A DNA stretch of 64,000 nt from Thiothrix unzii (GTDB taxonomy: Bacteria > Pseudomonadota > Gammaproteobacteria > Thiotrichales > Thiotrichaceae). The notes under the pieces are model-generated. The model worked only from the letters and a program-made list of their open reading frames with translations. It was not told where the DNA came from and searched no databases. This document shows positions 6,490-61,071 of this stretch, in pieces (position 1 is the first letter of the stretch; every line of letters begins with the position of its first letter). The position numbers and the translations under genes are program-made. Location of the stretch: assembly GCF_017901175.1 (NCBI RefSeq), contig NZ_CP072793.1:1612001-1676000 (forward strand), written 5' to 3'.

Positions 6490-6507
6490 TTGTCACAAAG
6501 CTGTCAT
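6490..6507 (+). promoter_or_regulatory. Pho box upstream of pstS
   Basis: TTGTCAC (6490-6496), AAAG, CTGTCAT (6501-6507) form two 7-bp direct repeats with 11-bp periodicity. The second repeat is the exact Pho consensus. The site lies 82 bp before the pstS start and matches the position where PhoB normally replaces a -35 element. It lies in the divergent plsC-pstS region. Confidence 0.85.
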
Positions 6508-6588
6508 ATTGGATGATTAGAGTACGCAGCAGTTCAATACGGACGTGATTGAAACATCATCTGATCTAAAAACTTTGGAGACTTTCAA

Positions 6589-7632: not shown

Positions 7633-7679
7633 TAACAAACACTTCTCCAGTTAATAAATTTTAACGAAAGGAGTTTTAA

Positions 7680-7703
7680 GGGAGCGCGTGTCGCTCCCTT
7701 TTT
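7680..7703 (+). terminator. Rho-independent terminator after pstS
   Basis: GGGAGCG (7680-7686), a 5-base loop and CGCTCCC (7692-7698) form a perfect stem, followed by TTTTT. It lies 48 bp beyond the pstS stop. Confidence 0.9.
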
Positions 7704-7741
7704 ATTGGGCGATGCACAAAAAAATCAACAAATTCAGCACA

Positions 7742-7759
7742 TTGTCACAGAATTGACAC
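7742..7759 (+). promoter_or_regulatory. Pho box upstream of phoB
   Basis: TTGTCAC (7742-7748), AGAA, TTGACAC (7753-7759) form two 7-bp direct repeats with 11-bp periodicity, about 50 bp before the phoB start. This predicts autoregulation of phoB. Confidence 0.75.
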
Positions 7760-7809
7760 ACAACCACGCTTAAATGCAACGTATAAAATGGAATTCATAC
7801 AGGTTTAAC

Positions 7810-8502: not shown

Positions 8503-8508
8503 ACATAA

Positions 8509-8526
8509 CCTTCACAAAAACGTCAC
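8509..8526 (+). promoter_or_regulatory. Weak Pho-box-like repeat before the glycosyltransferase
   Basis: CCTTCAC (8509-8515), AAAA, ACGTCAC (8520-8526) repeat with the 11-bp period of Pho boxes, but each matches the consensus at only about four of seven positions. A -10-like TACACT lies at 8566-8571, too far downstream for a standard two-repeat box, so I rate this low. Confidence 0.3.
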
Positions 8527-8585
8527 GGTGTTGCAGCACAAACCTTGGAAAATCAGGGGCATCGCTACACTGGAATGTTTATTTT

Positions 8586-9764: not shown

Positions 9765-10291
9765 AGCTGTTACATAACCTCAATGACCGCGAAATCCCGT
9801 TATGCCTGCTGTTTAACCGGATCAATCACCTCAAACCGATCAGCTTATTTTTTGCCGCCGTCAGCCGTTTGGGTAACGGGGTGTTTTGGTATGTGTTAAT
9901 GCTGATGTTGCCAGTGATTTACGGCTGGCAGGCGGTAACAGTATCGTTGCACATGGCTTTGGTCGGATTGCTGGGTGTACTGATTTATCGCTGGCTGAAA
10001 ACCTCAACCGAGCGGGTGCGCCCTTATTGCTACAGCGACACTATCTTTCAAAATGTCGCAGCCTTGGACCAGTTTAGTTTTCCGTCTGGGCATACCTTGC
10101 ACGCAGTCAGTTTTAGCTGGGTATTGCTAAGTTACTACCCGGAATGGTTGGTATTGGTTGCGCCCTTTGCGGCACTCGTGGCGTTGTCGCGGGTCATTTT
10201 AGGGCTGCACTACCCTAGCGATGTGCTGATGGGCGCGTTTTTGGGCGCGGGTTTAGCACAAGGAAGCCTGTGTGTATTGTCTTGCCTGTGA
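9761..10291 (+). CDS. PAP2-family membrane phosphatase
   Basis: With ATG 9761, overlapping the glycosyltransferase stop as ATGA, the protein has 176 residues and several membrane segments. It carries the three PAP2 signature motifs: KTSTERVRP near residue 80, PSGH near 107 and SRVILGLHYPSDV near 145-157. Family members dephosphorylate phosphatidic acid or undecaprenyl diphosphate. Translational coupling to a lipid-type glycosyltransferase suggests phosphatidic acid to diacylglycerol, supplying the acceptor for the partner enzyme. This substrate is an inference. Confidence 0.88.
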   Translation: MKLLHNLNDREIPLCLLFNRINHLKPISLFFAAVSRLGNGVFWYVLMLMLPVIYGWQAVTVSLHMALVGLLGVLIYRWLKTSTERVRPYCYSDTIFQNVAALDQFSFPSGHTLHAVSFSWVLLSYYPEWLVLVAPFAALVALSRVILGLHYPSDVLMGAFLGAGLAQGSLCVLSCL

Positions 10292-10306
10292 AAAGGAGTG
10301 ATCGCT

Positions 10307-10954
10307 ATGACCTTGCAACCCGTTACTTTGACTGGTCATTTAGTACACCTTGAACCCTTAAGTGACCACCATATCCCCGACTTACTGGAAGCCGCCCGCG
10401 ATGAACGCATCTGGCAATACATGTTTTACGGCAATCTCGCCGAACCCGAACACATGGAAAACTTTATTGCTAATGCGATTCGCCAACGTGATTTGGGCAG
10501 CGATTTACCGTTTGCGGTCATCCATCGCGCTTCTGGAAAAGCCATTGGCAGCACCCGTTTCCGAGATATTTGCTTAAAACACATGAAACTGGAAATTGGT
10601 GGAACCTGGTACGCCACCGAATACCAGCGCAGCGGAGTTAATCTGGAGTGCAAATATTTACTGATGCGCCATGCGTTTGAAACCTTCGGGATTTTGCGGG
10701 TGCAATTTAAAACGGATATTCGCAATGCGCGTTCACGCCAATCGCTGGAAAAATTAGGGGCTACGCAAGAAGGTGTATTGCGCCGCAGCGCGATTATGCC
10801 GGATGGTTTAATTCGTGATACCGCGATTTACAGTATTTTAGATACCGAATGGGGCATGGTGCGCCAAGGCTTGGAACACCGTTTATGCCGCCATAATGTG
10901 CGCGGTATTGCTGTGCCACAGACAGCAGCAATACCCACGCACATGCTGAATTAA
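10307..10954 (+). CDS. GNAT-family N-acetyltransferase, RimJ/RimL type
   Basis: Starting at ATG 10307, which has AAAAGGAG eight bases upstream, the 215-residue protein shows the RimL-like pattern: [16 protein letters not shown] at the start, [34 protein letters not shown] and [18 protein letters not shown]. These proteins use acetyl-CoA to acetylate N-termini or small molecules. The substrate is unknown. The last 30 residues look like a non-conserved extension. The gene ends in a 4-bp convergent overlap with the helicase gene. Confidence 0.85.
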
Positions 10955-12306
10955 GCTACAGCTTGCGGCTTATTAGGACGACGGCGTGGTTTATTCGCGC
11001 CATTGGCATTGTTGCCATTACCATTGCTGCGTTTTACCGCAGGCAAACCAGCCGCTTTACGTGCATCGTTTTTCTGCCCATTGGTGCGGCGATTCGCAGG
11101 GCGGTGTTGCGGTGAACGTGGCTTATCAGCTTCCGCATCAGCCTTAACTTCTTCTGGAGTACGCGGACGTACCGGTGCATTGCTGAAAACTGGCAATGGC
11201 TCACGCGGTAATTGCTGTTTAATCAGCTTCTCAATACCTTTGAGGAAACCGTATTCTTCCGGCTCAACCAAGGAAATCGCTTCGCCCGTTGCTCCGGCAC
11301 GCCCGGTACGCCCAATGCGATGCACGTAATCTTCCGAAACATTCGGTAACTCGAAATTTACCACGTGTGGCAATTGCTCAATATCCAAACCACGCGCCGC
11401 AATGTCAGTCGCCACCAACACCCGAATATTGCTTTGCTTGAAATCGGCTAAGGCTTTGGTACGCGCCCCTTGGCTTTTATTACCGTGAATCGCCGCAGCG
11501 GTGACACCATCACGTTCCAGCTTTTCTGCCAAACGGTTCGCGCCGTGTTTAGTACGGGTGAAAACCAGCACTTGTTCCCATTGGTTTTCGCGCACTAAAT
11601 GGCTTAACAATGCAGTTTTTTGCGTTTTATCCACCATATACACCGACTGTTTCACTGATGGCGCAGCGGCATTGCGCGGGCTAACTGAAATTTGCAGCGG
11701 GTTATTTAACACGCCCTTGGTTAATGCCACGATGTCATCAGAAAATGTCGCGGAAAACAGTAAAGTCTGACGGCGTTTCGGCAATACTGCCAACACTTTA
11801 CGGATGTCGCGGATAAAGCCCATGTCCAACATGCGATCCGCTTCATCCAATACGAGGATTTCCACTTGAGCAAATTTCACGGCATTTTGTTCGTACAAAT
11901 CCAGTAACCGCCCCGGTGTTGCCACCAGCACGTCAACACCGCGCCGTAACGCCATCATTTGCGGGTTAATGCTTACCCCGCCAAACACCACAGTAGAACT
12001 CAACGACAAATACTTGCCGTATTCGCGCACGCTTTCACCCACTTGCGCCGCCAATTCACGGGTTGGGGTTAACACCAACGCCCGGATGTGATTGGCACTG
12101 GGGCGATTGCCAGTCGATAAACGGTGCAATAATGGCAGGGTAAATCCTGCTGTTTTGCCTGTACCGGTTTGTGCCGCCGCCATAAGATCGCGCCCGGAAA
12201 GCACCGCAGGAATCCCTTGTGCTTGAATAGGAGTCGGGGTGTCATACCCCTGTTCGCCGATGGCACGCAACAGCGGCTCGGACAAGCCGAGTTCAGAAAA
12301 TAGCAT
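10951..12306 (-). CDS. rhlE: DEAD-box RNA helicase, RhlE type
   Basis: This 451-residue protein contains the Q-motif start [26 protein letters not shown], Walker [22 protein letters not shown] ([14 protein letters not shown]), SAT (LFSATFS), [10 protein letters not shown] and [10 protein letters not shown]. The basic C-terminal tail (about 385-451), rich in Arg, Pro and Asn, is typical of RhlE-like helicases that act in ribosome assembly or RNA decay. It is the last gene of a leftward run. Confidence 0.93.
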
Positions 12307-12313
12307 TGTTTAA

Positions 12314-12799
12314 TTAACCTCGTTCCTCAGCCGACCATTGGCTGTAGGGGTATTGAGTGAGCCGGACGTTGTAATAGCGTTCCAAATGGGAAACGTCATT
12401 GCCAGCCCAAGGTGGCATAATGATTACTTCATCCGATGAATCGAGTTCAACTTCCGCCACAATTAATCCGGCGTTGTCACCGTGGAATTCGTCTATTTCC
12501 CACAGTTTTCCGCCAAACTCGACAAAATGGCGGGTTTTTTCAATCAGCGGGCGTTCGCACAACTGATCCAACAATTCCATAGCATCGGGCAATGGAAGGG
12601 TGTATTCGTATTCGGCACGTTGCACACCCAAGGTCATACCTTTGATGTTCAACGTTGCCATTTCATCAGCAATCCGCACCCGCACCGAAGCGCGTTTGGT
12701 ATTGCTGAGATAGCCTTGCCGGAAAGTTTCAGAGCGGCTGATTAAAGCCCGCCATGCATCCGACACCAGCAAAAATTTGCGTTCAATTTCAATAGCCAT
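12314..12799 (-). CDS. CYTH-domain protein (triphosphate tunnel enzyme)
   Basis: The 161-residue protein starts with [11 protein letters not shown], the ExExK signature of CYTH proteins, and later has VRVRIADEMATLNIKG, RAEYEYTLP and WEIDEFHGDNAGLIVAEVEL, which supply the alternating charged tunnel residues. Relatives are short inorganic triphosphatases; class IV adenylate cyclase is a less likely alternative. The start overlaps the fabH stop by 1 bp, so it is co-transcribed with the fatty-acid genes. Confidence 0.9.
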   Translation of the reverse strand: MAIEIERKFLLVSDAWRALISRSETFRQGYLSNTKRASVRVRIADEMATLNIKGMTLGVQRAEYEYTLPLPDAMELLDQLCERPLIEKTRHFVEFGGKLWEIDEFHGDNAGLIVAEVELDSSDEVIIMPPWAGNDVSHLERYYNVRLTQYPYSQWSAEERG

Positions 12800-13767
12800 C
12801 AGAACTTAACTAAGGCAGAACCCCAAGTAAAGCCACCGCCGAACGCTTCCAATAAAATCACATCGCCACGTTTGATACGCCCATCGCGCACTGCCGTATC
12901 CAATGCCAACGGCACTGAAGCTGCCGAGGTATTACCGTGTTTATCAACCGTAACCACCACATTATCCATCGACATATCGAGCTTTTTCGCAGTCGCCTGA
13001 ATAATACGGATATTGGCTTGGTGCGGCACTAACCAGTTCACATCAGCTTTAGTCATGCCATTGGCTTCGAGCGTTTCATCAACAATACGCCCTAAGGTAT
13101 TGACTGCTACCCGAAAAACTTCGTTACCGCGCATTTGCAACAACGCACCTTCAGCACGCAGCATTTCCAAATTGCGTGAAATACCTGCATTAACACTTAA
13201 TAAATGCTCGTAAGCACCATCGGCATGGATGTGAGTGGATAAAATACCCGCTTCATCGCTGGCTTCCAGCACTACTGCACCCGCACCGTCACCAAATAAA
13301 ATGCAGGTGCCGCGATCTGTCCAATCCAAAATTTTGGACATGGCTTCAGAACCGACTACCAACGCACATTTGCTGGTACCGCTGCGTACAAATTTATCTG
13401 CCACGCTTAAGGCAAACACAAAACCGGAACACGCGGCTTGTACGTCAAAGGCCGCCCCGCCGTTGCGAATCCCCAAATTATTTTGGAGCAAACACGCGGT
13501 GCTAGGAAATACCAAATCCGGGGTAGATGTGCCCACGATAATCAAATCAACGTCTTCGGGCTTTTTACCTGCCATTTCCAAGGCACGACGTGCGGCGTGT
13601 TCCGCCATGTCGGAGGCACTTTCCATCTCAACAACGTGACGTTCACGAATCCCGGTACGTTCAAAAATCCACTCGTCGGTGGTATCAACCATTTCTTCAA
13701 GGTCTTTATTGGTCAATACTTTTTCCGGCAAATAACTACCCGTGCCGGTAATGCGTGAATAGATCAT
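12799..13767 (-). CDS. fabH: 3-oxoacyl-ACP synthase III
   Basis: This enzyme condenses acetyl-CoA with malonyl-ACP to start fatty acid synthesis. The 322-residue protein has the catalytic Cys113 in AACSGF, the histidine in [10 protein letters not shown] and the asparagine in HGNTSAAS, with a usual length for FabH. Its start overlaps the plsX stop by 4 bp in the conserved order yceD-rpmF-plsX-fabH. Confidence 0.97.
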
Positions 13768-14792
13768 GCTTTGATCCTCTGTGCGTGCAAATGTTCGAGT
13801 TGTTTATGAATGCGTTGCGGTACTTGCTTGATAATTTCAGTGCGAGCCATACCGATAGCGTTGGCGTAAGCAATGCTATCCGCGCCGCCGTGACTTTTTA
13901 CCACAATGCCTTGTAAGCCTAAGAAGCTTGCGCCATTGTAACGCCTTGGGTCAAATTTACGCCGAAACGATTTCAGCACCGGCAATGCAACTAAAGCCGC
14001 GAAACGTCGGAATAGGTTCGCAGTAAACTCTTGCTTGAGGTGCGAAGATACCATTTTCGCCAAACCTTCGCTGGTTTTCAGGGCGACATTACCCACAAAA
14101 CCGTCGCAAACCACTACGTCCACATCGCCGAGATAAATGTCATCACCTTCGACATAACCGATGTAATTCAATGGGCTACCTTGCAATAAGGCGTTGGCAG
14201 CTTTGACTTGCTCATTACCTTTGATCGCTTCTTGCCCAATATTGAGCAAACCGACTCTGGGGTTTGGATTATCGTCAATGGCTTTGGTGAGTTCCGACCC
14301 CATGAGGGCGAATTGATACAGGTGTTCTGCTTCAGAATCGACATTTGCGCCCAAATCCAGCATATGCGTGTGGCCTTTGATCGAAGGCAAAATGGTGCAA
14401 ATGGCGGGGCGGTCAATACCGGGCAGGGTTTTGAGAACGAAACGGGCGGTAGCCATTAACGCACCAGTATTGCCAGCACTGACGGCAGCATCGGCTTCAT
14501 TGGCTTTGACTAAATTAATAGCGACCCGCATGGAGGAATCTTTTTTATTTTTCAGAGCAACAGCGGGAGCTTCATCCATCTGTACGACTTGTGAAGCATG
14601 ATGAATACGCAACCGATTTCCAGCGACTGCTAGGTGTTGCGCCAATAGTGATTGAATCTGCGTTTCATCACCGACCAGAATCAAAGCAATATCATCGTAC
14701 TGTTTCAGGGCTTCCAGTGCGGCTGGAACCACCACCGACAACCCATGATCGCCTCCCATCGCATCCAACGCGATGCGATATTGTTCAGCCAT
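13764..14792 (-). CDS. plsX: Phosphate acyltransferase PlsX
   Basis: PlsX makes acyl-phosphate from acyl-ACP for the PlsY route to lysophosphatidic acid. The 342-residue protein starts [12 protein letters not shown] and contains [18 protein letters not shown] and [14 protein letters not shown], all typical of the family. The ribosome-binding site AGGAGAGG abuts the T-run of a terminator hairpin located between rpmF and plsX, so expression is probably partly uncoupled from rpmF. Confidence 0.97.
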
Positions 14793-49066: not shown

Positions 49067-50245
49067 TTAAACGCATAAATGCTGCACCAAGCGCACCCAA
49101 TAATTTGCCCCCAAGGGTAAAATTGCGTCGTTAAAATCGTAATACGGATTGTGCAACGGGCGGCTTTCCTGTGCATCGCCGTTACCGATCCAGATGTACG
49201 CGCCTGGGCGTTGTTGCAGCATATAGGCAAAATCTTCCGCGCCCATGCTCGGTGGCGGGTTCCATGTCACTTGCGCCTCACCCACCAATTCCATCGCAAC
49301 TTGATAGCAATGTTGCGCATTCGCAGGGGTATTAATCGTCGCAGGATAACCCGGTGTAAAACTCAGCGTCGCCTGCGCACCAAATGCCTCAGCCGTATGT
49401 GTCACCAAGGTTTGCAAGCGTTGTTTCATTAAGCTGCGAGCAGTTTCCGCTAGGGAACGAATCGTACCTTGCAGCAACACAGTTTCGGGAATGACATTGT
49501 AAGCACTGCCGCCGACCATGCGCGTAATGCTTACTACACCGGTGTCTACCGGCCGTAAATTACGCGCCACAATGCTTTGCACCGCCGTAATCAAATGCCC
49601 CGCGACTACCACCGGATCAACCACGGTATCGGGCATCGCCGCATGACCACCCTTGCCGGTAATTTCAATATCAAATGAATCGGTTGCTGCCATCACCGCT
49701 CCCGGATGCACCGCAAACTGCCCCGCCGGAATCCCCGGCCAATTATGCATTCCATAAACTTCCTGAATCGGGAAGCGGGTAAACAAACCATCTTCCACCA
49801 TGCGGTTCGCGCCTGCACCGCCTTCTTCCGCCGGTTGGAAAATGAAATACACCGTACCCGCGAACTCAGGATTTTGCGCCAAATAATGTGACGCACCCAA
49901 TAGCATGGTGGTATGCCCGTCATGTCCGCAGCCGTGCATTTTGCCGTGATGACAGGACGCATGAGCAAAGGTATTGGATTCGTGCATGGGCAACGCATCC
50001 ATATCCGCGCGTAATCCAATGTGCTTATCACCGGGATATTTCCCAGGCAACACTGCCACTAAACCGGTTCCACCTAGGCCAGAATGCACCGTCAAACCCC
50101 AATCCTGCAACTTTTGCTCAACGACAGCACAGGTACGAAACTCTTCGTAAGCGGTTTCAGGGTGTTTATGCAGATCACGTCGCCATTGCTGCATTTGCTG
50201 ATGCAACGTCGTCTGCGCAACAATCGGGTTAAGTCTGGCGGTCAT
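49067..50245 (-). CDS. M20 family amidohydrolase (hippurate hydrolase-like)
   Basis: This 392-residue metallopeptidase has the M20D pattern: RRDLHKHPETAYEE, GLRADMDALPMHE, CHHGKMHGCGHDGHTTMLLGA, FQPAEEGGAGANRM and MGAEDFAYMLQQRPGAYIWIG, supplying Cys, His, Glu and His metal ligands. Relatives remove acyl groups from N-acyl amino acids such as hippurate or indole-acetyl conjugates. The substrate here is unknown. Confidence 0.92.
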   Translation of the reverse strand: MTARLNPIVAQTTLHQQMQQWRRDLHKHPETAYEEFRTCAVVEQKLQDWGLTVHSGLGGTGLVAVLPGKYPGDKHIGLRADMDALPMHESNTFAHASCHHGKMHGCGHDGHTTMLLGASHYLAQNPEFAGTVYFIFQPAEEGGAGANRMVEDGLFTRFPIQEVYGMHNWPGIPAGQFAVHPGAVMAATDSFDIEITGKGGHAAMPDTVVDPVVVAGHLITAVQSIVARNLRPVDTGVVSITRMVGGSAYNVIPETVLLQGTIRSLAETARSLMKQRLQTLVTHTAEAFGAQATLSFTPGYPATINTPANAQHCYQVAMELVGEAQVTWNPPPSMGAEDFAYMLQQRPGAYIWIGNGDAQESRPLHNPYYDFNDAILPLGANYWVRLVQHLCV

Positions 50246-50316
50246 ACCTTACCTCACAAAAAACAGGCGACACCAAGGCCGCCCATTATTAAAGCATTGG
50301 AAATAGCATTGCCTGT

Positions 50317-51570
50317 TTACATATGGGCAATGACATTATCACCAAATTCGGAACAACTGATTTCTTCCGCGCCATCAATCAAACGCGCGAAGTCAAATGT
50401 CACACGCTTAGATGAAATCGCACCTGCCGTACCTTTATTGATCAAATCAGCCGCTTCCAGCCAGCCCAAATGACGCAGCATCATTTCTGCTGACAGCACT
50501 AAGGAGCTAGGATTTACCTGATCCAAACCCGCGAATTTTGGCGCAGTGCCGTGGGTTGCTTCAAACATCGCGGTGGTATCTGACAAGTTTGCGCCCGGTG
50601 CAATGCCGATACCGCCCACTTGAGCCGCTAACGCATCAGAAACGAAGTCACCGTTGAGGTTCAAGGTTGCCACCACGGAATAATCTTCAGGGTGCAGTAA
50701 AATTTGTTGCAGGAAGTTATCAGCAATCACGTCTTTGATAATGATTTCTTTACCATTTAACGGATTTTTCATGGAACACCAAGGGCCACCTTGAATTTCC
50801 ACTGCACCGAATTCTTCTTTCGCCAGCTCGTAACCCCAATTTTTGAATGCACCCTCGGTAAACTTCATGATGTTACCTTTGTGTACCAAAGTCACGGAAT
50901 CATGATCGTTGTCGATCGCGTATTGCATCGCTTTGCGCACCAAACGCTTAGTGCCATCGCGGGACACAGGTTTGATACCAATGCCGGAGGTTTCAGGGAA
51001 ACGGATTTTAGTGACACCCATTTCCTTCATCAAAAATTCAATGACTTTTTTCGCTTCGGGGGTTTCGGCTGCCCACTCGATACCCGCGTAAATGTCTTCG
51101 GAGTTTTCACGGAAAATCACCATATTGGTTTTTTCCGGGTGCTTCACTGGGCTAGGTACGCCGTCATAATAACGGATCGGGCGCAAGCACAGGTAAAGGT
51201 CAAGGTCTTGACGTAATTTGACGTTGAGGGAACGGATACCGCCGCCCACTGGCGTAGTTAATGGCCCTTTGATGGAAACCACGAAATCATTGACCGCCCG
51301 TACCGTTTCATCCGGCAACCAAACGTCTTCGCCGTAAATTTGCGTGGCTTTTTCGCCCGCATAGACTTCCATCCAAGAAATTTTGCGCTCACCGCCGTAA
51401 GCTTTTTGCACAGCAGCGTCGACAACTTTGAGCATAACCGGGCTAATATCAACCCCAATACCATCACCTTCGATGTACGGAATAATCGGATTATTCGGCA
51501 CATTTAACGAATAGTCAGCATTGGTTGTGATTTTTTCGCCTTGCGCGGGAACTTTTACATGTTGGTACAT
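50317..51570 (-). CDS. icd: Isocitrate dehydrogenase (NADP+)
   Basis: This TCA-cycle enzyme has 417 residues when started at ATG 51570, which follows GGAGAGAGAG. It contains [15 protein letters not shown], the phosphorylation-loop region [40 protein letters not shown] and [13 protein letters not shown]. The sequence matches the Escherichia coli type NADP enzyme. It stands alone. Confidence 0.97.
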
Positions 51571-51672
51571 GAACTCTCTCTCCATTTAGGTATTTGTTTC
51601 TCTCAAAGCGTTGCGACTGATTATAAGGGGGCAACCCCTCAATAACCAGATTTGTCTGGCTATCGGTGGGGA

Positions 51673-52020
51673 TCAACCCAATTTCAATCCAGCAAAAAAA
51701 CCGACTGTCGCACTCACGCCCTTACTGCTGATCGACGATAGCCGCTCGACCAAAAAGCCACCGGATGATTTAGCCGCATCCACCGCTGAATTCGCCGCAT
51801 TTTGCAAGCTGGCATCCGACACATTCGTAAAGCCGTAATATTCACCTACGAACATCAGCACCAAAGCCGCGCCCCCGATAAACAGAGCCAACCGTAACAT
51901 CTTTTTGGCGAAATAACCCACCGCCAGCCCAATCACAAAAGGCGCACCAACATTGCCCAACAAAAAGCTGGACGACAAAATATCCATTGACTGCATCGAG
52001 TCGACTGAATGCTCATTCAT
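51673..52020 (-). CDS. FUN14-domain small membrane protein
   Basis: This 115-residue protein has the FUN14 pattern: LGNVGAPFVIGLAVGYFAKKMLRLALFIGGAALVLMFVGEYYGF, then an amphipathic helix and a glycine-rich C-terminus ATVGFFAGLKLG. The bacterial members are of unknown function. A second start at Met9 or Met12 is possible. Confidence 0.8.
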   Translation of the reverse strand: MNEHSVDSMQSMDILSSSFLLGNVGAPFVIGLAVGYFAKKMLRLALFIGGAALVLMFVGEYYGFTNVSDASLQNAANSAVDAAKSSGGFLVERLSSISSKGVSATVGFFAGLKLG

Positions 52021-52181
52021 CGCATTTTTCCAAACATGGTTTATAAAATTTTCTTAAACGCACCGGCATGTTCCGCATTGCGTCCACAGTATAGATCAAT
52101 ATTTACACAAAACTATTTCAGCATTGTCTAAAACTTGAAATATAATTCATAGTATCGTTCATTTTCTGTTCATTCTTTTGC

Positions 52182-52300
52182 TACAATCAGCACCGCTGAT
52201 AGACCCAAAGAAAAACTTGTGTTTGCTTACAAGCAAAATTGATGCCACGCGAATGCTCACCGGGTGTGCATAATTTGGCATGTTATTTGCTTACAAAGCA
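52182..52300 (+). promoter_or_regulatory. Promoter and inverted repeats in the 455-bp leader of the FtsK-like operon
   Basis: The 455 bp from 52021 to 52475 hold no gene I can support and are AT-rich between about 52080 and 52200. TACAAT (52182-52187) is a -10-like element. It overlaps a perfect inverted repeat ATCAGC-ACC-GCTGAT (52186-52200). Two related palindromic sites follow, TTTGCTTACAAGCAAA (52222-52237) and TTTGCTTACAAAGCA (52286-52300), 64 bp apart. These look like operator sites for a regulator. A strong ribosome-binding site AGGAGAGGA (52462-52470) precedes the first gene. Confidence 0.5.
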
Positions 52301-52475
52301 ACCACTACGAGTCAATCACAGGATGGGGCGTAATGTGAGAGTGTCAGTTTCCCTACCCTCCATCGTTATTGTTTTTACCAAAGGCGCGAGGTTAACCCTA
52401 CCATGATGCAGCGAACAACTGCCCGTATAGCTATTGCATATAATTTCTTCACCCTCGTCACAGGAGAGGAATGAT

Positions 52476-53012
52476 ATGGCAATTTCCAACGTTATCGAAC
52501 AAAAACGTACCCGCATTGCCACCATACTGAGCACGAAACCCCTGTTAATGGGCATGAGTGCTGTCGATATTGGCTGGTTTTTCCATTTATTAGCGGCTAT
52601 GTGGATGGGGTATTACGCTTTTCATGGGGAAAATCCTTTAGCTTTCACTGGATTACACGCACCTGCTTATAAAATTGGGGTGGTGGCTATTGCCGAAGGT
52701 GCACGCGCCATCTTGAGCATGGCAAACGTTTGGGAAGAAGAAATTAACTGGCTCGCCTCCACCGTTCTGGTCATGGTTTTGCTCACTATGGGTGGCGCAG
52801 ACATCGAACGTATAGCTGATGGCGCACCTTCGATTCAATACAACGCTAACATTGCCCAAGTCGCCAACAAACATTACGACATGAGCCAATGCAATTTTTA
52901 CAGCCCGATTTTAGGCAGAGCCTTGAATCAACAAGAAAAAAATGAGTGTATCCAAATTAATAAAGCGGGGAGTTTGGATAGCAAATGGGCTAAAAATTGC
53001 GGGTGCAGTTGA
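52476..53012 (+). CDS. Membrane protein of unknown function, first gene of the FtsK-like operon
   Basis: I do not recognise this 178-residue protein. ATG 52476 is chosen because AGGAGAGGA ends six bases upstream. It has two clear hydrophobic segments (about 30-50 and 92-110) and perhaps a weaker one between them. The C-terminal 60 residues are polar, with four cysteines (in SQCNFY, NECIQ and NCGCS) that suggest disulfides in the periplasm. The stop overlaps the next start as TGATG. Confidence 0.75.
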   Translation: MAISNVIEQKRTRIATILSTKPLLMGMSAVDIGWFFHLLAAMWMGYYAFHGENPLAFTGLHAPAYKIGVVAIAEGARAILSMANVWEEEINWLASTVLVMVLLTMGGADIERIADGAPSIQYNANIAQVANKHYDMSQCNFYSPILGRALNQQEKNECIQINKAGSLDSKWAKNCGCS

Positions 53013-53371
53013 TGAGGCAAGAATTGACTGACGGGCAGCGGGTACTGATGGGGGAGCTGCTGCCCGTCCAAAACTACGCTCCACCGCAAGACCCGGTGCA
53101 AGTGCATGTGCATGTTGGCAGTGGTGGCGGCAACGCCACCTCCAGCTTGTCTTGGCTTGGAATGTTGGGTGCGGCAACGATTGGCGTTATTGCCTATTCC
53201 CTCTACCAAGGCCAGCCTGTTTCTGCCACGGTTGAACGCATTGAAACCTCCCTTGCAGCAGCGGCAACCCCGCAGTGGTGGGATGATTTGAAAAACAAAT
53301 GGGAGGGCAAAACACCACCTCCCACTAAACCCGAAAGTGTGGTTGCGGAGAGTAAGCCCAGTGTCCCTTGA
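53012..53371 (+). CDS. Small single-span membrane protein of the FtsK-like operon
   Basis: This 119-residue protein of unknown function begins MRQELTDGQRVLMGELLPVQ. It has a His/Val/Gly-rich stretch (VQVHVHVGSGGGN), one hydrophobic segment (about 47-68) and a Pro-rich tail TPPPTKPESVV. The tail resembles an envelope linker. It overlaps its neighbours at both ends, so its product is likely made together with the FtsK-like protein. Confidence 0.72.
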   Translation: MRQELTDGQRVLMGELLPVQNYAPPQDPVQVHVHVGSGGGNATSSLSWLGMLGAATIGVIAYSLYQGQPVSATVERIETSLAAAATPQWWDDLKNKWEGKTPPPTKPESVVAESKPSVP

Positions 53372-54836
53372 GTTATTGAAGACGTTAAAGACCCCATCAC
53401 AACGGCAATCCGTGATGGAGAATGTCCTAAATTGGTGCAATAAGCACAAAATAGGGGTACTCCCGGAAGCATGGCGCACCGCCAAACCCAATAATAAAGA
53501 CTTGATCGACATGGCAAAACCTACCTTGGTTGGTTTGCCTGCCTTAATGATCCTGTATTTGATTTGGGAAATACCGGGTTTTGCTGCCGGAATGGCGATT
53601 ATCGTCGGTTTTGCCATTTTAGATGCCACCCGCCCATTACGTGGCGGGCATTGGCTAGGCCGACCAGAAGCTTCCAAAAAAGCCGAGGTGCAACGCCGCT
53701 TTTTAATCGAAAAAGGCATGGATCCCGAAAAGTGGTGGGGTAAAAAGCTTCAGGATGCGTTAAATGCGCACAATATCAAAGCCAACGTGGTGGTGTTGGA
53801 CACCTCCGGCGCGACGCTGGATATGTACGAACTGGAAGTACAACAAGGCTATGATGTCGCCGGAATTACCGCATTAGGTGAAAACTTTTCCCGCGCATTG
53901 AAATTACCTAAGGGTACGCACATCAGTGTCGATGCCAATATCGGTAACGGACGCGCCGCCTTATACATCCCCAAGGAAAAATACCGCCCGGTACGCACCT
54001 TAAGCATGTTGGAAGCTGCGCAAACGTCAGGCTATGCCTTACCCGGTTTAGTGGGTGAAGATTTAATCGGTAATCCGATGATTGTCGACATTACCCATGC
54101 GCCGCACTTACTGGTTGGCGGTGAAGTCGGCATGGAACGTGCGGGGCAAATGCTCAATATCATCCTGAGCACCAGTTACAGCCTGCCCCCGGAACGCTTG
54201 CGCATTACCCTGATTGACCCCAAGTTACTGGAATTAGCCGTCTGCAACAGTTTGCCGCAAGTGACTGAGCCGGTGATCACCGACATGCACAAGGCTCACA
54301 AGTGCCTGTTACAGATTCGTAAAATGATGCTGGTGCGTTGCCAGCAATTTTTGGAAGCTGGGGTCAATAATATTGCGGCGTATAATCGTCGCTTTCCTGA
54401 GGCTCCCATGCCTTACCAGTTAGTCGCCTTCAGCGAATTAACCATTGGCTTAAAATGCAGTGCGCCAGTATCGGCTGATGATGACCGTGAAGTGGGTGAC
54501 AGCATTAAAAGTCTGTTATTGGAATTGATTGGCGCGGCTCCCACGCAAGAAGCGGGTATTCACTTTTTGTTTGGGATTCAATGTTATGACCCCAAAACTT
54601 GCGGTGAAACCTTGCGTCAGGGCATTCCCTCCAGTATTGGAATGCGGGTGCGGGCGCATGAATTCAGCGAATTACTGATTGGACAAAAAGGTTGTGAAAG
54701 CTTGTGCGAACAAGGTGAATGTTACGTCTTCATGTCGGGGGATGCCTCCCCAAAACGCGCGTTATCAGCCGCTCTCATCGGCGAAGATATGGAACACGCA
54801 GTAGATTTGATTCGGGAAAAATGGTCGACTGAATGA
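53361..54836 (+). CDS. FtsK/SpoIIIE-like protein with destroyed Walker motifs (pseudo-ATPase)
   Basis: The 491-residue protein (GTG 53361, GGAG at 53347-53350; ATG 53415 is an alternative) has two hydrophobic segments (about 55-88), then an FtsK alpha-like domain (about 140-210) and a beta/motor domain. The match to FtsK is clear: GEDLIGNPMIVDI, APHLLVGG, LRITLIDPKLLEL, VITDMHKAH, GVNNIAAYNRR, AGIHFLFGIQ, IPSSIGMRV and GCESLCEQGECYVF. The Walker A motif, GTTGSGKS in FtsK, reads GEVGMERA, so both the Lys and the Ser are gone. The Walker B segment VVLVDEFAD reads LVAFSELTI. The DNA-reading gamma domain is absent. The reading frame is intact, which argues for a maintained non-ATPase role. Confidence 0.85.
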   Translation: MSLELLKTLKTPSQRQSVMENVLNWCNKHKIGVLPEAWRTAKPNNKDLIDMAKPTLVGLPALMILYLIWEIPGFAAGMAIIVGFAILDATRPLRGGHWLGRPEASKKAEVQRRFLIEKGMDPEKWWGKKLQDALNAHNIKANVVVLDTSGATLDMYELEVQQGYDVAGITALGENFSRALKLPKGTHISVDANIGNGRAALYIPKEKYRPVRTLSMLEAAQTSGYALPGLVGEDLIGNPMIVDITHAPHLLVGGEVGMERAGQMLNIILSTSYSLPPERLRITLIDPKLLELAVCNSLPQVTEPVITDMHKAHKCLLQIRKMMLVRCQQFLEAGVNNIAAYNRRFPEAPMPYQLVAFSELTIGLKCSAPVSADDDREVGDSIKSLLLELIGAAPTQEAGIHFLFGIQCYDPKTCGETLRQGIPSSIGMRVRAHEFSELLIGQKGCESLCEQGECYVFMSGDASPKRALSAALIGEDMEHAVDLIREKWSTE

Positions 54837-55546
54837 ACGTTTTGCATTACCAAGTTGGCTCCCCACAAGCAGCGGGGTTTGTGTATCGGCATTGGCTGGC
54901 ATTTAGCATCGGTATTTTGTTGTGCTTAATGGCAACCGGCAAAGCCTTGCATCACGGTCATAACGCACCGCCCGGCACGCTGAAAAAGCTGATTTTAGAC
55001 GGCGAAGCCGGTAGCCGGGGCTACAACAGTTATAACCGTGGCTCAATGCGCTGTGCTAAAAGCAACAGTGCACCGCTCAATCTTACCAATATGAGCATCG
55101 GGCAAATTCAATATTATCAATCGTTGCCATCGTGTTCTTCACAAAAGCTGTTGGCAGTCGGGCATTATCAAATCGTGCCAGAAACGTTAGATATTGCGGT
55201 AAGAACCCTGAAACTCCCGCCATCAACTAGATTCACCCCTGCCGTACAAGATCGTATTTTTGCATTTTATCTGGCGAAAGAAAAACAGCCTGCGATTGAC
55301 CGCTGGGTACGTCAAGGTCAAGGTTTGTATTCCGCCAGTTACGCGATTGCGAAAGAATGGGCGATTTTCAAAGCACCCAACGGACGCGGGGTTTACGATG
55401 GCAACGGCAATAATAAAGCGCGAATCAGCTCAGTCAAAGTCACTCTGGCATTAAGAAAAGCACGGGAAGATTATTTGCATCTGATTCATAAAGGCTTGGA
55501 TGAAGACACCGCTTACGCCACGGCATTGGGAGTCAAGAAAGGGTAA
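54833..55546 (+). CDS. Membrane-anchored lysozyme-like protein
   Basis: This 237-residue protein has one N-terminal membrane segment (about 21-37) followed by a lysozyme-like domain: LILDGEAGSRGYNSYNRGS with the probable catalytic Glu57, LTNMSIGQIQYYQSL, AVGHYQIVPETLDIA and FTPAVQDRIFAFYLA. This layout matches phage-type and secretion-associated muramidases or transglycosylases. The ATG overlaps the stop of the FtsK-like gene. Its domain should face the periplasm and could open peptidoglycan locally for an envelope-spanning assembly. Confidence 0.78.
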   Translation: MNVLHYQVGSPQAAGFVYRHWLAFSIGILLCLMATGKALHHGHNAPPGTLKKLILDGEAGSRGYNSYNRGSMRCAKSNSAPLNLTNMSIGQIQYYQSLPSCSSQKLLAVGHYQIVPETLDIAVRTLKLPPSTRFTPAVQDRIFAFYLAKEKQPAIDRWVRQGQGLYSASYAIAKEWAIFKAPNGRGVYDGNGNNKARISSVKVTLALRKAREDYLHLIHKGLDEDTAYATALGVKKG

Positions 55547-55568
55547 AGGCAACCGTACCTTTACCCTT
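55539..55568. terminator. Hairpin between convergent genes, overlapping the lysozyme-like stop codon
   Basis: AAGGGTAAAGG (55539-55549) pairs perfectly over 11 bp with CCTTTACCCTT (55558-55568) around an 8-base loop. The stop codon of the lysozyme-like gene lies in the left arm, and the fumarase gene ends 11 bp beyond on the other strand. There is no strong T-run, so it may work as a weak bidirectional terminator or as an mRNA 3'-end stabiliser. Confidence 0.55.
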
Positions 55569-55578
55569 GGCTGCGCAT

Positions 55579-57093
55579 TTAGTGCTGCGTGTGATTCATG
55601 GCAATGATTTTCTGCCATTTTGCAGGGCCGGTGGTATGCACGGATTCGCCGTTGCTATCCACCGCGACCGTTACCGGCATATCCTTAACTTCAAACTCGT
55701 AAATCGCTTCCATACCCAATTCCGGGAAGGCCAACACTTTCGCGCCGGTAATCGCTTTGGACACCAAATAAGCCGCGCCGCCGACCGCCATTAAATACAC
55801 CGCACCGAATTCTTTAATCGCTTCAATCGCAACCGGGCCGCGTTCGGATTTACCAATCATGCCTAACAAACCGGTTTGCTGAAGAATTTGATGGGTAAAT
55901 TTATCCATGCGCGTGGAGGTGGTAGGCCCTGCTGGCCCGACTACTTCGTCACGTACCGGATCAACCGGCCCCACGTAATAAATAAAACGCCCGCGCAAAT
56001 CAACGGGTAAAGTTTCACCCTTATTAAGCATATCGACCATGCGTTTGTGTGCTGCATCGCGCCCGGTCAGCATTTTACCCGACAGCAACACCGTTTCACC
56101 GGGTTTCAATTGGCGTACCTGTTCGGGAGTAATGGTATCGAGGTTAACGCGCGTTGCCTGCGCCCCACCTTCCAAGGAAATTTGTGGCCAATGCGATAAG
56201 TCTGGCGGGGTTTGCAAGGCCGCACCGGAGCCATCCAACACAAAGTGCGTATGGCGCGTGGCTGCACAGTTAGGAATCATGCAAACCGGCAAAGACGCGG
56301 CATGGGTGGGGTAATCTTTGATTTTAACATCCAGCACCGTGGTCAAACCGCCCAGCCCTTGCGCTCCTAAGCCAAGATTATTGACCTTTTCAAATAATTC
56401 CAGACGCAGCTCTTCTACGCGATTTTGCGCCCCACGTGCCTGCAATTCCTGAATGTCGATATGTTCCATCAGGGCTTCTTTCGCCATTAGCGCGGCTTTT
56501 TCAGCCGTACCACCAATACCAATCCCCAGCATTCCCGGTGGACACCAACCCGCACCCATTTGCGGCACAGTTTTCAACACCCAATCCACAATGCTGTCGG
56601 AAGGGTTAAGCATTGCCATTTTAGATTTATTTTCTGAGCCACCGCCCTTGGCAGCCACATCAAATTCGACTTTATCACCGGGGACAATTTCGTAATGAAT
56701 CACCGCTGGGGTATTGTCCTTGGTATTTCTACGCGCACCTGCCGGGTCTGCTAAAATCGACGCACGCAATACGTTATCCGGTTGCAAATAAGCGCGACGC
56801 ACCCCTTCATTGATCATATCAGTGAGGCTCATATCGCCTTCCCACTGCACATTCATCCCGACTTTTACAAACACGGTAACAATGCCGGTGTCTTGGCAAA
56901 TCGGGCGATGACCTTCTGCGCACATCCGTGAATTCACTAAAATCTGCCCAATCGCATCTTTTGCGGCGGGGGACGCTTCACGCTGCCACGCCTGATGCAT
57001 CGCTTCAATAAAATCCACGGGATGATAATAAGAAATGAATTGCAACGCATCAGCGACACTGGCAATCACGTCGTCTTGTTTGATGAGACTCAT
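55579..57093 (-). CDS. Class I (iron-sulfur) fumarate hydratase
   Basis: This 504-residue enzyme of the oxygen-labile class I family interconverts fumarate and malate in the TCA cycle. Cysteines for the 4Fe-4S cluster are present in PICQDTG, WCPPGMLGIGIGGT and NCAATRHTHF. The family is that of Escherichia coli FumA/FumB. It stands alone, downstream of the FtsK-like operon in convergent orientation. Confidence 0.95.
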   Translation of the reverse strand: MSLIKQDDVIASVADALQFISYYHPVDFIEAMHQAWQREASPAAKDAIGQILVNSRMCAEGHRPICQDTGIVTVFVKVGMNVQWEGDMSLTDMINEGVRRAYLQPDNVLRASILADPAGARRNTKDNTPAVIHYEIVPGDKVEFDVAAKGGGSENKSKMAMLNPSDSIVDWVLKTVPQMGAGWCPPGMLGIGIGGTAEKAALMAKEALMEHIDIQELQARGAQNRVEELRLELFEKVNNLGLGAQGLGGLTTVLDVKIKDYPTHAASLPVCMIPNCAATRHTHFVLDGSGAALQTPPDLSHWPQISLEGGAQATRVNLDTITPEQVRQLKPGETVLLSGKMLTGRDAAHKRMVDMLNKGETLPVDLRGRFIYYVGPVDPVRDEVVGPAGPTTSTRMDKFTHQILQQTGLLGMIGKSERGPVAIEAIKEFGAVYLMAVGGAAYLVSKAITGAKVLAFPELGMEAIYEFEVKDMPVTVAVDSNGESVHTTGPAKWQKIIAMNHTQH

Positions 57094-57139
57094 ACGGTTC
57101 TACTCCTTTGGTGGGTTAGCTACTGCGTGCAGGCAAGTC

Positions 57140-57943
57140 TTATTGTTGTGGTGCACAAGCGTATGCGAAACGGGAGGCCGACAGCAAGTGTTGTGTGTAA
57201 GGATGTTGCGGGTTCGCGAAAATAGTGTCGACACATCCCTCCTCCACCACCTTTCCGGCTTGCATTACTGCGATACGCTCACACAAACCACCGGCTAACG
57301 GCAAATCGTGGGTAATCAATACAATCGCCATCTCACGTTGTCGCCGGATGGCTTGCAACAAGGCGATAATTTCCGACTGCACCGTAACATCCAACGCTGT
57401 GGTTGGCTCATCTGCAATCAGTAAATCCGGCTCGCACAGCAATGCCATCGCAATCATTACTCGCTGGCGCATTCCGCCGGATAATTCATGTGGGTAGCTG
57501 TCAAAACGCCGCGAAGCATCGTTAATCCGCACCTGTTCAAGCATGGCTATCGCTTTAGCACGGGCGGCAGGCGTTTTCAGGTGTTGGTGGGTAGTGAGAA
57601 CTTCGGTGAGTTGTTGCCCGATAGTTAACAGCGGATTCAACGAGGTCATCGGGTCTTGAAAAATCATCGCAATACGGCTGCCACGGTAGCGGTTTAACAG
57701 CGCGGCTGGCTGCCCCAATAATTGCGTACCGGCAAATTGCACACTGCCAGTAGCACGGGCATTGCGTGGTAATAAACCCATGACTGCGTGCAACAACTGG
57801 CTTTTACCCGCACCGGATTCGCCGACAACCGCAAGGGTTTCACCGGGCTGCGCTTGCAAACTCACCCCACGCACTGCTTCCACACAACCCCTGTCGGGTG
57901 AGTGGAAGCTAACGTGCAGGTCTTGAAGTGTTAATAAAGCCAC
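57140..57943 (-). CDS. OppD/DppD-type ABC transporter ATPase, orphan
   Basis: This 267-residue protein has Walker A GESGAGKSQ, Q-loop FQDPMTSLNP, signature LSGGMRQR, Walker B LLIADEPTTALD and H-loop ITHD, with the peptide-transporter C-terminal motif NPQHPYTQHLL. It belongs to the oligopeptide/dipeptide/nickel importer ATPases, yet no permease or binding-protein gene is adjacent, so its partners must lie elsewhere or outside the window. The C-terminal iron-sulfur cysteine motif seen in some OppD proteins is not evident. Confidence 0.9.
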   Translation of the reverse strand: MALLTLQDLHVSFHSPDRGCVEAVRGVSLQAQPGETLAVVGESGAGKSQLLHAVMGLLPRNARATGSVQFAGTQLLGQPAALLNRYRGSRIAMIFQDPMTSLNPLLTIGQQLTEVLTTHQHLKTPAARAKAIAMLEQVRINDASRRFDSYPHELSGGMRQRVMIAMALLCEPDLLIADEPTTALDVTVQSEIIALLQAIRRQREMAIVLITHDLPLAGGLCERIAVMQAGKVVEEGCVDTIFANPQHPYTQHLLSASRFAYACAPQQ

Positions 57944-57950
57944 TGCGGCA

Positions 57951-58991
57951 TTAAGAGGCCATCAAGGCAGCCATTTTTGCAGCATTCGGGCGTTCGATCA
58001 CACCTTTTTCCGTCACCAGTGCATCAACTAATGCAGCAGGTGTCACATCAAATGCCGGATTCCACGCCTGTGCTTGCATTGCGGCAATGCGTTGATTGCC
58101 AACATTCAGCACTTCATCTTGTGAACGCTCTTCAATCGGAATGTCGTTGCCGGTAAGGGTATTCATGTCAATGGTGCTGGTGGGTGCAACCACCATAAAG
58201 CGTACCCCGTGGTAACGCGCATTCACCGCAAGGCTGTAAGTGCCGATTTTGTTTGCCACATCACCGTTGGCAGCAATGCGGTCGGAACCAACAATGACCC
58301 AAGACACTTTGCCCTGACGCATTAAGCTCGCAGCAGCACCCTCGCACAATAAATGCGCGGGGATTTTATCTTTCACCAGTTCCCACGCGGTCAGGCGCGA
58401 ACCTTGCCACCAAGGGCGGGTTTCATCGGCGTAAACGTGTTCAATCTTGCCGTTGCTGTACGCGCTACGAATCACACCCAAAGCCGTGCCGTAACCGCCA
58501 GTAGCGAGTGAGCCGGTATTGCAGTGGGTTAAAACCCCGTGTGATGGCTGAATTAACGCGCTGCCTAATTCGCCCATACGGTAATTATCATCAATGTCAT
58601 CTTGATGAATACGTTGCGCCAGTTCCAGCAGTACCGGTTCCGGGTCGCCTTGAATGCCTTCCAAGGCAGCGCACATCCGACGCAATGCCCACATTAAATT
58701 GACAGCGGTAGGACGCGCATTCATCAGCACGTCTTTTTCAGCTTCTAAGCGATTACGCCAATCTTGCGGATACTGTTTATAACTTTTACGTGCCGCCATA
58801 ACGACCCCGTAAGCAGCCGCAATACCAATGGCTGGCGCACCGCGCACCACCATATTACGAATCGCATCGGCGGTTTCTTCCGCGCTATACAACTGCACGT
58901 ATTGCTCGTTATGCGGGAGCTTGCGCTGGTCAAGTAAGACCAGATGGTTGTCTTTCCATTCTACGGCACGGATCGAATCGTGTTGACTCAT
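57951..58991 (-). CDS. mtnA: S-methyl-5-thioribose-1-phosphate isomerase
   Basis: MtnA converts methylthioribose-1-phosphate to methylthioribulose-1-phosphate in methionine salvage. From ATG 58991 ([15 protein letters not shown]) it has 346 residues with [36 protein letters not shown] with the catalytic Cys, [16 protein letters not shown] with the Asp, and APTSTID. ATG 59006 (MPKIL) is an equally possible start; neither has a good ribosome-binding site. It is divergent from mtaD, its pathway neighbour. Confidence 0.95.
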
Positions 58992-59044
58992 GAGGATTTT
59001 CGGCATAAATAGGTTATTTAAAGTGGCAATGTTACAACACCCCA

Positions 59045-60361
59045 ATGGAAATTGAATTACTGGTTATCCCCGAATGGGTTATTACTGTCAATTCTCGCAA
59101 TCAGGTACTACACCACCACGCTGTGGCGGTTGATGATAGCAGAATTGTTGACATACTTCCCGTGTCTGAGGCAGAAAAACGCTACCGTCCGCGACAAACT
59201 GTCGTTTTAGCGCAACAAGCTTTGCTCCCCGGTTTGGTGAATGCACATACCCACGCAGCAATGGCTTTGCTTAAAGGATTGGCAGACGATTTACCGCTGA
59301 TGGAGTGGTTGCAAAACCACATTTGGCCTGCGGAAAGTCGCTGGGCGGATGCGCAATTTGTTTACGATGGCTCACGCTTAGCCATTGCGGAAATGATTCG
59401 CTCCGGCACGACCTGCTTTAACGACATGTATTTTTTCCCCGAACAAACTGCAAAAGCCGTGCAGGAAGCAGGGATTCGTGCCTGCATTGGTCTGATCGTG
59501 ATCGACTTTCCGACCGCGTGGGGCACAGGCCCTGAAGATTACCTGCAAAAAGGCTTGGCGTTGCATGATCAAGTGGCTGACGACCCGCTGTTGACTACCG
59601 CGTTTGCGCCGCACGCCCCTTACACAGTCTCAGATGACCCGCTCAAACAAGTCAGTCACTTAGCCTGTGAAATGGATATGCCTATCCACATGCATGTTCA
59701 CGAAACTGCGTTTGAAGTGCAACAAGCACTGGCGCAACACGATGCCGTACCGCTGGCACGACTGGATAATCTCGGCTTACTCGATAAGCATTTTCTTGCG
59801 GTACACATGACGCAACTTACCGATGAGGAAATAGCGTTACTGGCGGAAAAAGGCACGCACGTCATTCACTGCCCGGAATCCAACCTCAAGCTCGCCAGCG
59901 GTTTTTGCCCAGTCGCTAAACTGTTAGCCGCCGGAGTCAATGTCGCCCTCGGCACGGACGGCAACGCCAGCAACAACGACCTCGATATGCTCGGCGAAAT
60001 GCGCACCGCTGCCCTGATCGCCAAAGCCGTAGCGCACGATGCCAGTGTGGTGTCAGCAGCACAAGCCTTACGCATGGCAACCATCAATGGCGCAACCGCG
60101 CTAGGATTAGCCGACACCATTGGTTCGTTGGAAATCGGCAAAGCAGCGGATATGATCGCGGTCGATTTAAGCGCACTGGAAACCCAGCCGCTGTACGACC
60201 CGGTTTCCCAAATCGTTTATTGCGCCAACCGCAATCAGGTAACGCACACTTGGGTAGCAGGCAAAGCCCTCATGACCCAGCGTGAACTGACCACCCTTAA
60301 TATCACTGAACTACTCGCCACCGCGCAGGCATGGCAACAAAAAATCGGAGCAACCTCATGA
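59045..60361 (+). CDS. mtaD: 5-methylthioadenosine/S-adenosylhomocysteine deaminase
   Basis: The 438-residue amidohydrolase has metal ligands in [33 protein letters not shown] and [14 protein letters not shown]. In pseudomonads the same enzyme deaminates methylthioadenosine to methylthioinosine as the first step of a variant salvage route, and there too it lies beside mtnA and ubiG. It overlaps ubiG by 4 bp. Confidence 0.93.
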
Positions 60362-61071
60362 CCACTGCCGTTCCCAACGTTGACCCCAATGAAATCCGCA
60401 AGTTTGAAGAGCTGGCCTACCGCTGGTGGGACACTGAAAGCGAATTCAAACCCTTGCATGACATTAATCCATTGCGCCTGAACTACATCGACGATCGCGT
60501 TCATTTACAAGGAAAAAAAGTCATTGATGTAGGCTGCGGCGGCGGCATTTTGGCAGAAAGCATGGCGCGGCGCGGCGCAATCGTAACCGGCATTGATATG
60601 GGCGAAACCCCGTTAAGTGTGGCACAAATGCACGCACTGGAATCACAAGTCAGCGTCGATTACCGCCAGATCAGTGCTGAAAGCATCGCACTGGAAGCCG
60701 CCGGACAATTCGATGCCGTGACCTGCATGGAAATGCTGGAACACGTACCCGACCCCGCGTCCGTTATTGCCGCTTGCGCTACCTTGGTGAAACCCGGTGG
60801 CGATGTGTTTTTCTCCACCATTAACCGCAATCCCAAAGCCTTCGCCTTTGCGATTATCGGTGCAGAATACCTGATGAATATGCTTCCCAAAGGCACGCAC
60901 GAATACGCAAAATTCATCAAACCCTCAGAACTCGAAAAATGGGCACGTTCCGTCGGACTAGAACTGCGTAATATCAGCGGCATGTCCTACAATCCCCTGT
61001 TTCAGAGTTACCGTTTAGGTAATGACGTTGATGTTAACTATTTAATGCATTTCAAGAAGGAAACCATTTGA
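60358..61071 (+). CDS. ubiG: Ubiquinone biosynthesis O-methyltransferase
   Basis: UbiG carries out both O-methylations of ubiquinone synthesis. From ATG 60358 the 237-residue protein shows [30 protein letters not shown], the SAM motif [16 protein letters not shown] and [10 protein letters not shown]. Coupling to mtaD by a 4-bp overlap is known from pseudomonads. Confidence 0.97.

Follow-up and report, generated by a model that had tools for sequence, protein, structure and literature searches.

A four-gene membrane operon of Thiothrix built around an FtsK-like protein with lost motor motifs

What might a cell do with an FtsK-like protein that has lost the residues of its motor and is encoded among membrane proteins, one of them a putative wall hydrolase? 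This question is raised by a locus of Thiothrix unzii (NCBI RefSeq assembly GCF_017901175.1) within the 64,000 nucleotides (nt) of contig NZ_CP072793.1 that we analysed (positions 1,612,001 to 1,676,000; hereafter the window). Four genes, here called P1 to P4, lie on the plus strand at 52476-55546, with consecutive overlaps of 1, 11 and 4 nt that leave no gaps. An initial annotation, made from the sequence alone, had described them as a gapless envelope operon. Both points hold, given the overlaps, the predicted spans of P1, P2 and P4 and the hydrophobic N-terminus of P3. For P3 an ATG at 53415 is a possible start; the GTG at 53361 gives 491 amino acids (aa) and the 11-nt overlap with P2, and a GTG stands at the equivalent position in all four orthologues. 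The genes are as follows.

P1, 52476..53012, plus strand: 178 aa, three predicted membrane helices and a C-terminal domain with four conserved Cys.
P2, 53012..53371, plus strand: 119 aa, one span and a Pro-rich C-terminal tail; its start codon ATG shares 1 nt with the P1 stop.
P3, 53361..54836, plus strand: 491 aa, FtsK alpha/beta-like, with one or more hydrophobic N-terminal stretches, motor motifs lost and no gamma domain.
P4, 54833..55546, plus strand: 237 aa, a signal-anchored phage-type lysozyme-like domain with a putative catalytic Glu58 in a GExG motif.

P3 matched the Pfam family FtsK_SpoIIIE (2e-20) and, in a profile comparison, the FtsK motor structure 2ius (2.1e-38). Judged by this similarity over the alpha/beta motor, its sequence places it by descent in the FtsK/SpoIIIE superfamily. 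Its N-terminus shows two hydrophobic peaks in three of the four copies and one in the UBA5583 (G326) copy. The table of FtsK-like proteins from the examined loci has 37 rows, of which five are P3 (four distinct copies, one with two starts) and 32 are other proteins. The Walker A motif GxxGxGK[ST] is intact in 32/32 of these others and reads GGE[VI]GxERA in all four P3 copies. The Asp-Glu of Walker B is likewise Ser-Glu in 4/4, with the Asp replaced and the Glu kept. According to the cryo-electron microscopy study of P. aeruginosa FtsK (PMC7321959), R620 is the arginine finger, and DNA is contacted by R632 and K643 (loop II) and by K657 and R661 (loop I). With these numbers transferred to P3 by hand-counting along the motif, the arginine finger is lost (Gln in 4/4) and the four DNA-contacting positions read Cys, Arg, His (Gln in the G322 copy) and Glu, so that three of the four gripping residues are gone. 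In an alignment against 27 host FtsKs, 47 of the 187 host-invariant columns are kept in all four P3 copies, while 114 are changed in all four. Five Cys are invariant in P3 (327, 408, 414, 445 and 454); none of the host FtsKs has a Cys at these columns, and among the ATPases of the element-like loci described below a single one has one.

Since the motor residues and most DNA-gripping residues are replaced, P3 is expected neither to hydrolyse ATP nor to pump DNA as FtsK does. Judged from these residues, P3 is motor-dead in all four copies, that is, a pseudo-FtsK. Because of the same losses, found in 4/4, we reject P3 as an active DNA pump. The absence of ATPase motifs reported in the initial annotation is thereby borne out, whereas the DNA translocation device that it also considered is unlikely in an active form. 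A full-text search of the literature returned no described case of a pseudo-ATPase FtsK; the paper that did match, PMC12839542, treats another ATPase, of BREX. FtsK-derived pseudo-enzymes are thus hardly documented. In the tree, P3 stands apart as a clade with support 100, and its branch is so long (about 2.1 substitutions per site) that its placement is tentative. The tree does not support an origin of P3 from within the host FtsKs or from within any one group of element ATPases, P3 being a clade of its own.

At its N-terminus P4 has a single span, and two of its Cys are kept in all four copies. It matched no Pfam family, and its relatives are phage endolysin and tape-measure proteins (PHROG 30077, 37890 and 90). 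The GE motif and the AxGxYQ motif, which it has in common with these phage relatives, are invariant in 10/10 aligned sequences, and the structural model of P4 gives a weak fold match to lambda lysozyme (mean predicted local distance difference test score, pLDDT, 58). P4 therefore has a putative phage-type lysozyme-like domain (muramidase or transglycosylase), and the homology agrees with the membrane-anchored, wall-cutting protein first proposed. A 312-aa protein at 4265-5203 of locus L049 (G331:C30), near a terminase gene, is 46% identical to P4 residues 43-236 and is likely a prophage endolysin.

P1 shows three hydropathy peaks, and Cys 139, 158, 175 and 177 are kept in 4/4 copies. Its AlphaFold2 model places helices at 29-49, 64-82 and 87-104 with low confidence (mean pLDDT 58.6). 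Because basic residues precede the first span, the sequence suggests that the N-terminus lies inside and that the C-terminus with its four invariant Cys is periplasmic. By hydropathy, P2 has a single span followed by the Pro-rich tail. Neither P1 nor P2 has clear relatives among the known families of Pfam, NCBIfam, PHROGs and PADLOC, and for the four proteins together these databases gave just generic FtsK-domain and endolysin matches; the profile searches proposed in the initial annotation thus disclosed no known system beyond generic hits. Weak Pfam matches of P1 to YwiC (0.013) and DUF6130 (0.015) fell under the cut-offs and were set aside. Profile searches of the PDB with P1, P2 and P4 gave nothing convincing. 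P1 and P2 matched nothing in PHROG at E up to 1, a database comparison in which small holins, which diverge fast, may escape, and nothing among 72,556 plasmid or 50,697 phage records (E up to 0.01), so that a known phage or plasmid module is not supported. Scans of viral contigs with P1, P3 and P4 profiles, which depend on short exact peptide patterns, gave 0 confirmed relatives.

The distribution of the four genes was followed in 63 genomes of the family, 16 of them of the genus Thiothrix; an order-level search gave the same 63. P1 and P4 were each found in 4/63, and G331 additionally carries the 46% relative of P4 in L049. The P2 profile gave four strong matches and two weak, unread ones (E 0.002 and 0.004). 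P3 occurs at at least 55% identity in 4/63, the other FtsK-like matches there being at most 35% identical. The carriers are the same for all four genes: the window's genome (G000), G322, G326 and G331, all Thiothrix, with the genes adjacent and in the same order. Co-occurrence beyond the window's genome, on which the idea of a system depended, thus extends to three further genomes. The intact set is present in 4/16 genus genomes and 0/47 other family genomes. Wider samples were drawn without the other three operon genomes. In these, a single-sequence search with P1 found 1/274 class genomes, and the P1 and P3 profiles each found 1/398 phylum genomes, in every case the window's own; the P3 profile (E up to 1e-45) found 2/369 class genomes, the own one and one with an unread 795-aa frame. 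A P3 scan of genome contigs returned only two Thiothrix loci (G331 and G326), and it sees close relatives only, because the 56%-identical G322-type copy was missed.

All 16 gene copies (four genes in four genomes) are open. The ratio of nonsynonymous to synonymous substitution rates (dN/dS; NG86) was 0.036-0.188 in the 11 of 24 pairwise gene comparisons that gave a value. For the least saturated pair, UBA5583 (G326) and STA_22 (G331), it was 0.091 for P1, 0.128 for P2, 0.088 for P3 and 0.071 for P4. Rough as these figures are, they indicate that the operon is kept by purifying selection.

A set of similar parts with a live ATPase exists elsewhere in the family. Among the weaker FtsK relatives of P3 we found locus L090 (G324), where the genes for an M23 peptidase (6.8e-29), a tail-lysozyme-domain protein (1.6e-14), a U258 protein and an FtsK-like ATPase, its Walker A intact, adjoin one another; relatives of its lysozyme-domain protein occur in 12/63 family genomes, the window's own included. 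In seven further loci (L113 and L114-L119), a lysozyme-domain protein, a U258-like single-span protein, an ATPase and a 170-200 aa protein with two to three spans stand together in 7/7, with the last inside a longer frame in L117 and a different gene order in L118. Walker A is present in 8/8 element ATPases aligned. Phage-type integrases lie in two of the seven loci, and replication or integrase genes near some. One locus, L113 (G000:C2:1283000-1301000, 5639-10162), belongs to the window's own genome, and its ATPase matches the HerA part of DndH (1.8e-169). The lysozyme domain of the element loci is phrog_27932 tail lysozyme, a family other than that of P4. Sequence tests for homology failed: by hhalign, P1 against the small multi-span element proteins (A6) reached 20% probability over 19 columns, P2 0.8% and P4 1.2%, and in hmmsearch the A6 profile reached P1 with no better than E 4.3, although the C-terminal register of the match is sensible. 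Because these tests failed for P1, P2 and P4, the element set is best taken as an analogy of composition and not as a demonstrated family, with remote kinship perhaps for P1 only. The initial view that no described system has this composition is weakened by this analogous live-ATPase set, in spite of the failed homology tests. Two candidate generalisations were rejected: mutual exclusion of operon and element-like loci, for lack of anticorrelation, and a hydrophobic hairpin as a general feature of element ATPases, the N-terminal stretch passing the cut in 4/7.

Several other loci with FtsK-like ATPases or related genes were noted alongside. The lysozyme-domain protein of L113 also has a CHAP domain. 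L046 (G331:C35), L047 (C41), L048 (C37) and L051 (G326:C34) encode FtsK-like ATPases, 614-629 aa long, whose Walker A is intact; three of these loci are three-gene cassettes in which proteins of 550-579 aa and 189-198 aa precede the ATPase, and in L048 the ATPase comes first, close to the start of the contig. A Dnd/Pbe-like locus in L089 (G334:C1:701000-719000, 4382-14003) and L088 (G320) encodes DndC (4e-121), PbeC/DndD (1585 bits) and a 495-aa SspH-like FtsK. In L091 (G328:C1:2759000-2776000), transposase-like open reading frames (ORFs), recognised by eye, interrupt another locus of the L090 type.

Taken together, we tentatively favour the reading, for which we would claim somewhat less than an even chance, that P1-P4 assemble into a chromosomally settled complex of the inner membrane, with an FtsK-like platform that lacks the motor and with a wall hydrolase of its own. 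In this picture P3 would build, or become part of, a ring of the FtsK type that serves on the cytoplasmic side as a platform or gate and does not use ATP to pump DNA; in the membrane its partners would be P1, with a periplasmic C-terminal Cys domain, and P2. From its anchor in the inner membrane, P4 would cleave peptidoglycan at the complex so that the complex or a cargo could cross the wall. Such a device would work like the envelope part of DNA transfer modules that pair FtsK with a wall hydrolase, minus the motor. We prefer this reading because the overlapping genes are kept together and in order in 4/4 genomes where any of them occurs with high identity, because the frames are intact with low dN/dS and the motor loss of P3 is identical in all four copies, and because the P4 GE motif is kept in 10/10 and analogous sets occur in all seven element-like loci read. 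Several points weigh against it. The single complex, its topology, the ring and the local opening of the wall are what we infer, and the interaction of the proteins is itself putative. The P3 ring itself may be gone, because 114 of the 187 host-invariant columns are changed in 4/4. The long P3 branch lies outside the element ATPases and is not nested among them, and P1, P2 and P4 showed no homology to element proteins. In addition, the AlphaFold2 models of P1 and P4 are of low confidence, and dS was saturated, leaving the ratio undefined, in 13 of the 24 comparisons.

The first alternative to be weighed, unlikely but deserving attention, is a factor for remodelling the wall at septa or in filaments. 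Here P3 would use its FtsK-type fold only to get to the division site, by itself or together with host FtsK, and would bring P4 to septal peptidoglycan, with filament breakage, gonidia release or septal thinning as outcomes. An FtsK-type fold joined with an anchored wall hydrolase would suit this task, Thiothrix is a filamentous genus with gonidia (PMC3368414), and the G322 operon lies directly before murJ. However, the operon occurs in just 4/16 genus genomes, and P3 retains just 47 of the 187 host-invariant columns.

Three copies of the operon lie between icd and fum, with FUN14 beside icd in two of the three, and the G322 copy lies between coaBC and murJ (Pfam DFP and MurJ). G320, the closest relative by fum (99% protein identity), lacks the operon: its FUN14 and fum are adjacent, with the aligned flanks 32 nt apart, where 3561 nt separate them in the window, which substantiates the island between housekeeping genes first described. 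In G330, icd and fum are adjacent without FUN14 or operon, and the ten other operon-less genus genomes have different genes beside fum. Compared with G320 in steps of 500 bases, positions 35705-64000 of the window alternate between identities of about 0.77 and 0.99 in a recombination-like mosaic; to the right of the island (56000-61000) the values are about 0.95-0.99, and immediately to its left (50000-52000) about 0.78-0.89. Homologous recombination that brought in or removed the island would fit such a pattern; vertical loss would look the same, since the fum tree represents one gene and the identity to G320 is a mosaic. No mobile-element ends, target-site repeats or terminal repeats were found at the island, just short chance-like repeats. 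The flanks of the icd-fum site hold housekeeping genes and no adjoining integrase (ORFs read by eye, partly by BLAST), whereas in G322 a phage-type integrase lies about 3 kb from the operon, with radC and coaBC in between; the neighbour check proposed initially thus came out differently at the two sites. No homologue of relaxase, TraB, Spd or VirB was recognised next to the operon, where no search was aimed at relaxases.

Improbable in our estimate is a defence or exclusion device, in which P3 as a decoy FtsK would poison or sense the FtsK/HerA motors of incoming elements and P4 would be the killing or lysis arm. The patchy distribution of the operon, whose site is empty in the closest relative, the phage relatives of the P4 domain and the frequency of FtsK/HerA-type ATPases on element-like loci of the family agree with it. 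Yet in PADLOC, P3 gave generic FtsK-domain matches to SspH and P1, P2 and P4 gave 0, so that no defence family emerges beyond these. The element marker occurs in 2/4 operon genomes against 5/12 others (Fisher p = 1.0), and the icd-fum site has housekeeping genes on its flanks. Of the defence or phage-derived module envisaged at first, the phage kinship of the P4 domain survives, while no such origin was shown for the rest.

A slim prospect is that the operon descends from a conjugation-like module that belonged to an integrative element and was domesticated; only the scaffold and the wall hydrolase would be left, and they would serve DNA release or uptake with a separate motor. The element loci of the family have a similar composition with ATPase motifs intact in 8/8, and two of seven carry phage-type integrases. 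Against this, no homology to element proteins was detected except for the shared FtsK fold, and the candidate P1/A6 match has the low probability and short span given above. Slimmer still is an ATP-independent envelope gate or cell-cell junction of filamentous bacteria, in which a passive, Cys-lined FtsK collar under metal or redox control would be combined with an anchored muramidase that opens the wall, perhaps at the septa that divide a filament into cells; this idea arises because a DNA-gripping Arg of the pore loop has become Cys in 4/4 and five Cys of P3 are invariant. A decaying, functionless remnant is very hard to credit: the lost ATPase motifs and the presence/absence variation would allow it, but all four genes are open in 4/4 copies with low dN/dS where computable, and the replacement motif GGE[VI]GxERA is itself conserved.

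Around the operon, the long leader noted initially is real, with 455 nt from the FUN14 start at 40% GC against 50% for the window, and the upstream gaps of the four copies measure 455, 534, 503 and 705 nt at 31-45% GC. Two further features were recorded.

Possible leader ORF, 52404..52474, plus strand: 23 codons, ending next to the P1 start, behind the conserved GGCGCGAGGTTWACCC.
Inverted repeat GGGTAAAGG...CCTTTACCC, 55544..55570, no strand assigned: terminator-like, between the convergent P4 and fum, read by eye.

The GGCGCGAGGTTWACCC stretch (52383-52398) has its motif in three of four copies, and a 23-codon ORF ending 0-1 nt before P1 is likewise present in three of four and absent in G322; because the peptide is poorly conserved, its coding is uncertain. 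Similar hairpins lie downstream of P4 in two relatives at the icd-fum site. The terminator scan did not list the inverted repeat at 55544-55570, the promoter and terminator scan gave no more signals than shuffles, and Rfam had 0 matches in 51500-56000. Separately, the fum frame at G334:C1:2637082-2638572, in a single-contig genome, contains three TGA, through error or decay.

How does the operon compare with known systems? Compared with the FtsK/SpoIIIE translocases (2ius, 2iuu), P3 is alike over the alpha/beta motor but lacks Walker A, the Walker B Asp, the arginine finger, three of the four gripping residues and the gamma domain, and its N-terminus is merely short and hydrophobic. EssC/EccC of type VII secretion is FtsK-like with degenerate ATPase domains. 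P3 matched EssC and EccC chains weakly, reaching 1.3e-7 and 29.6 bits against a cut-off of 778.4 with the EssC model, yet it has a single FtsK-like domain without the EssC architecture. In contrast to the phage endolysin and tape-measure lysozyme domains, P4 has an N-terminal anchor and is encoded on the chromosome in one operon with an FtsK-like gene and genes for membrane proteins. No holin or spanin, as in a phage lysis cassette, was recognised beside it, though small holins diverge fast. Streptomyces TraB/Spd septal DNA transfer combines an active FtsK-like motor with small membrane proteins, and Gram-negative type IV secretion systems combine an active coupling protein or translocase with a VirB1-type wall hydrolase. 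P1-P4 resemble both in these pairings; however, the motors there are active, while the motor motifs of P3 are lost. A conserved motor-less FtsK body beside a wall hydrolase would show uses of the FtsK scaffold apart from DNA pumping, and the operon offers a small clonable set for studying how an inner-membrane complex gets past peptidoglycan. Similar in composition are the element loci, which have the same kinds of parts side by side, one of them in the window's own genome, but differ in their live ATPase motifs, their other lysozyme family and the integrase or replication genes near some; they provide the natural live-motor comparison for the pseudo-FtsK operon.

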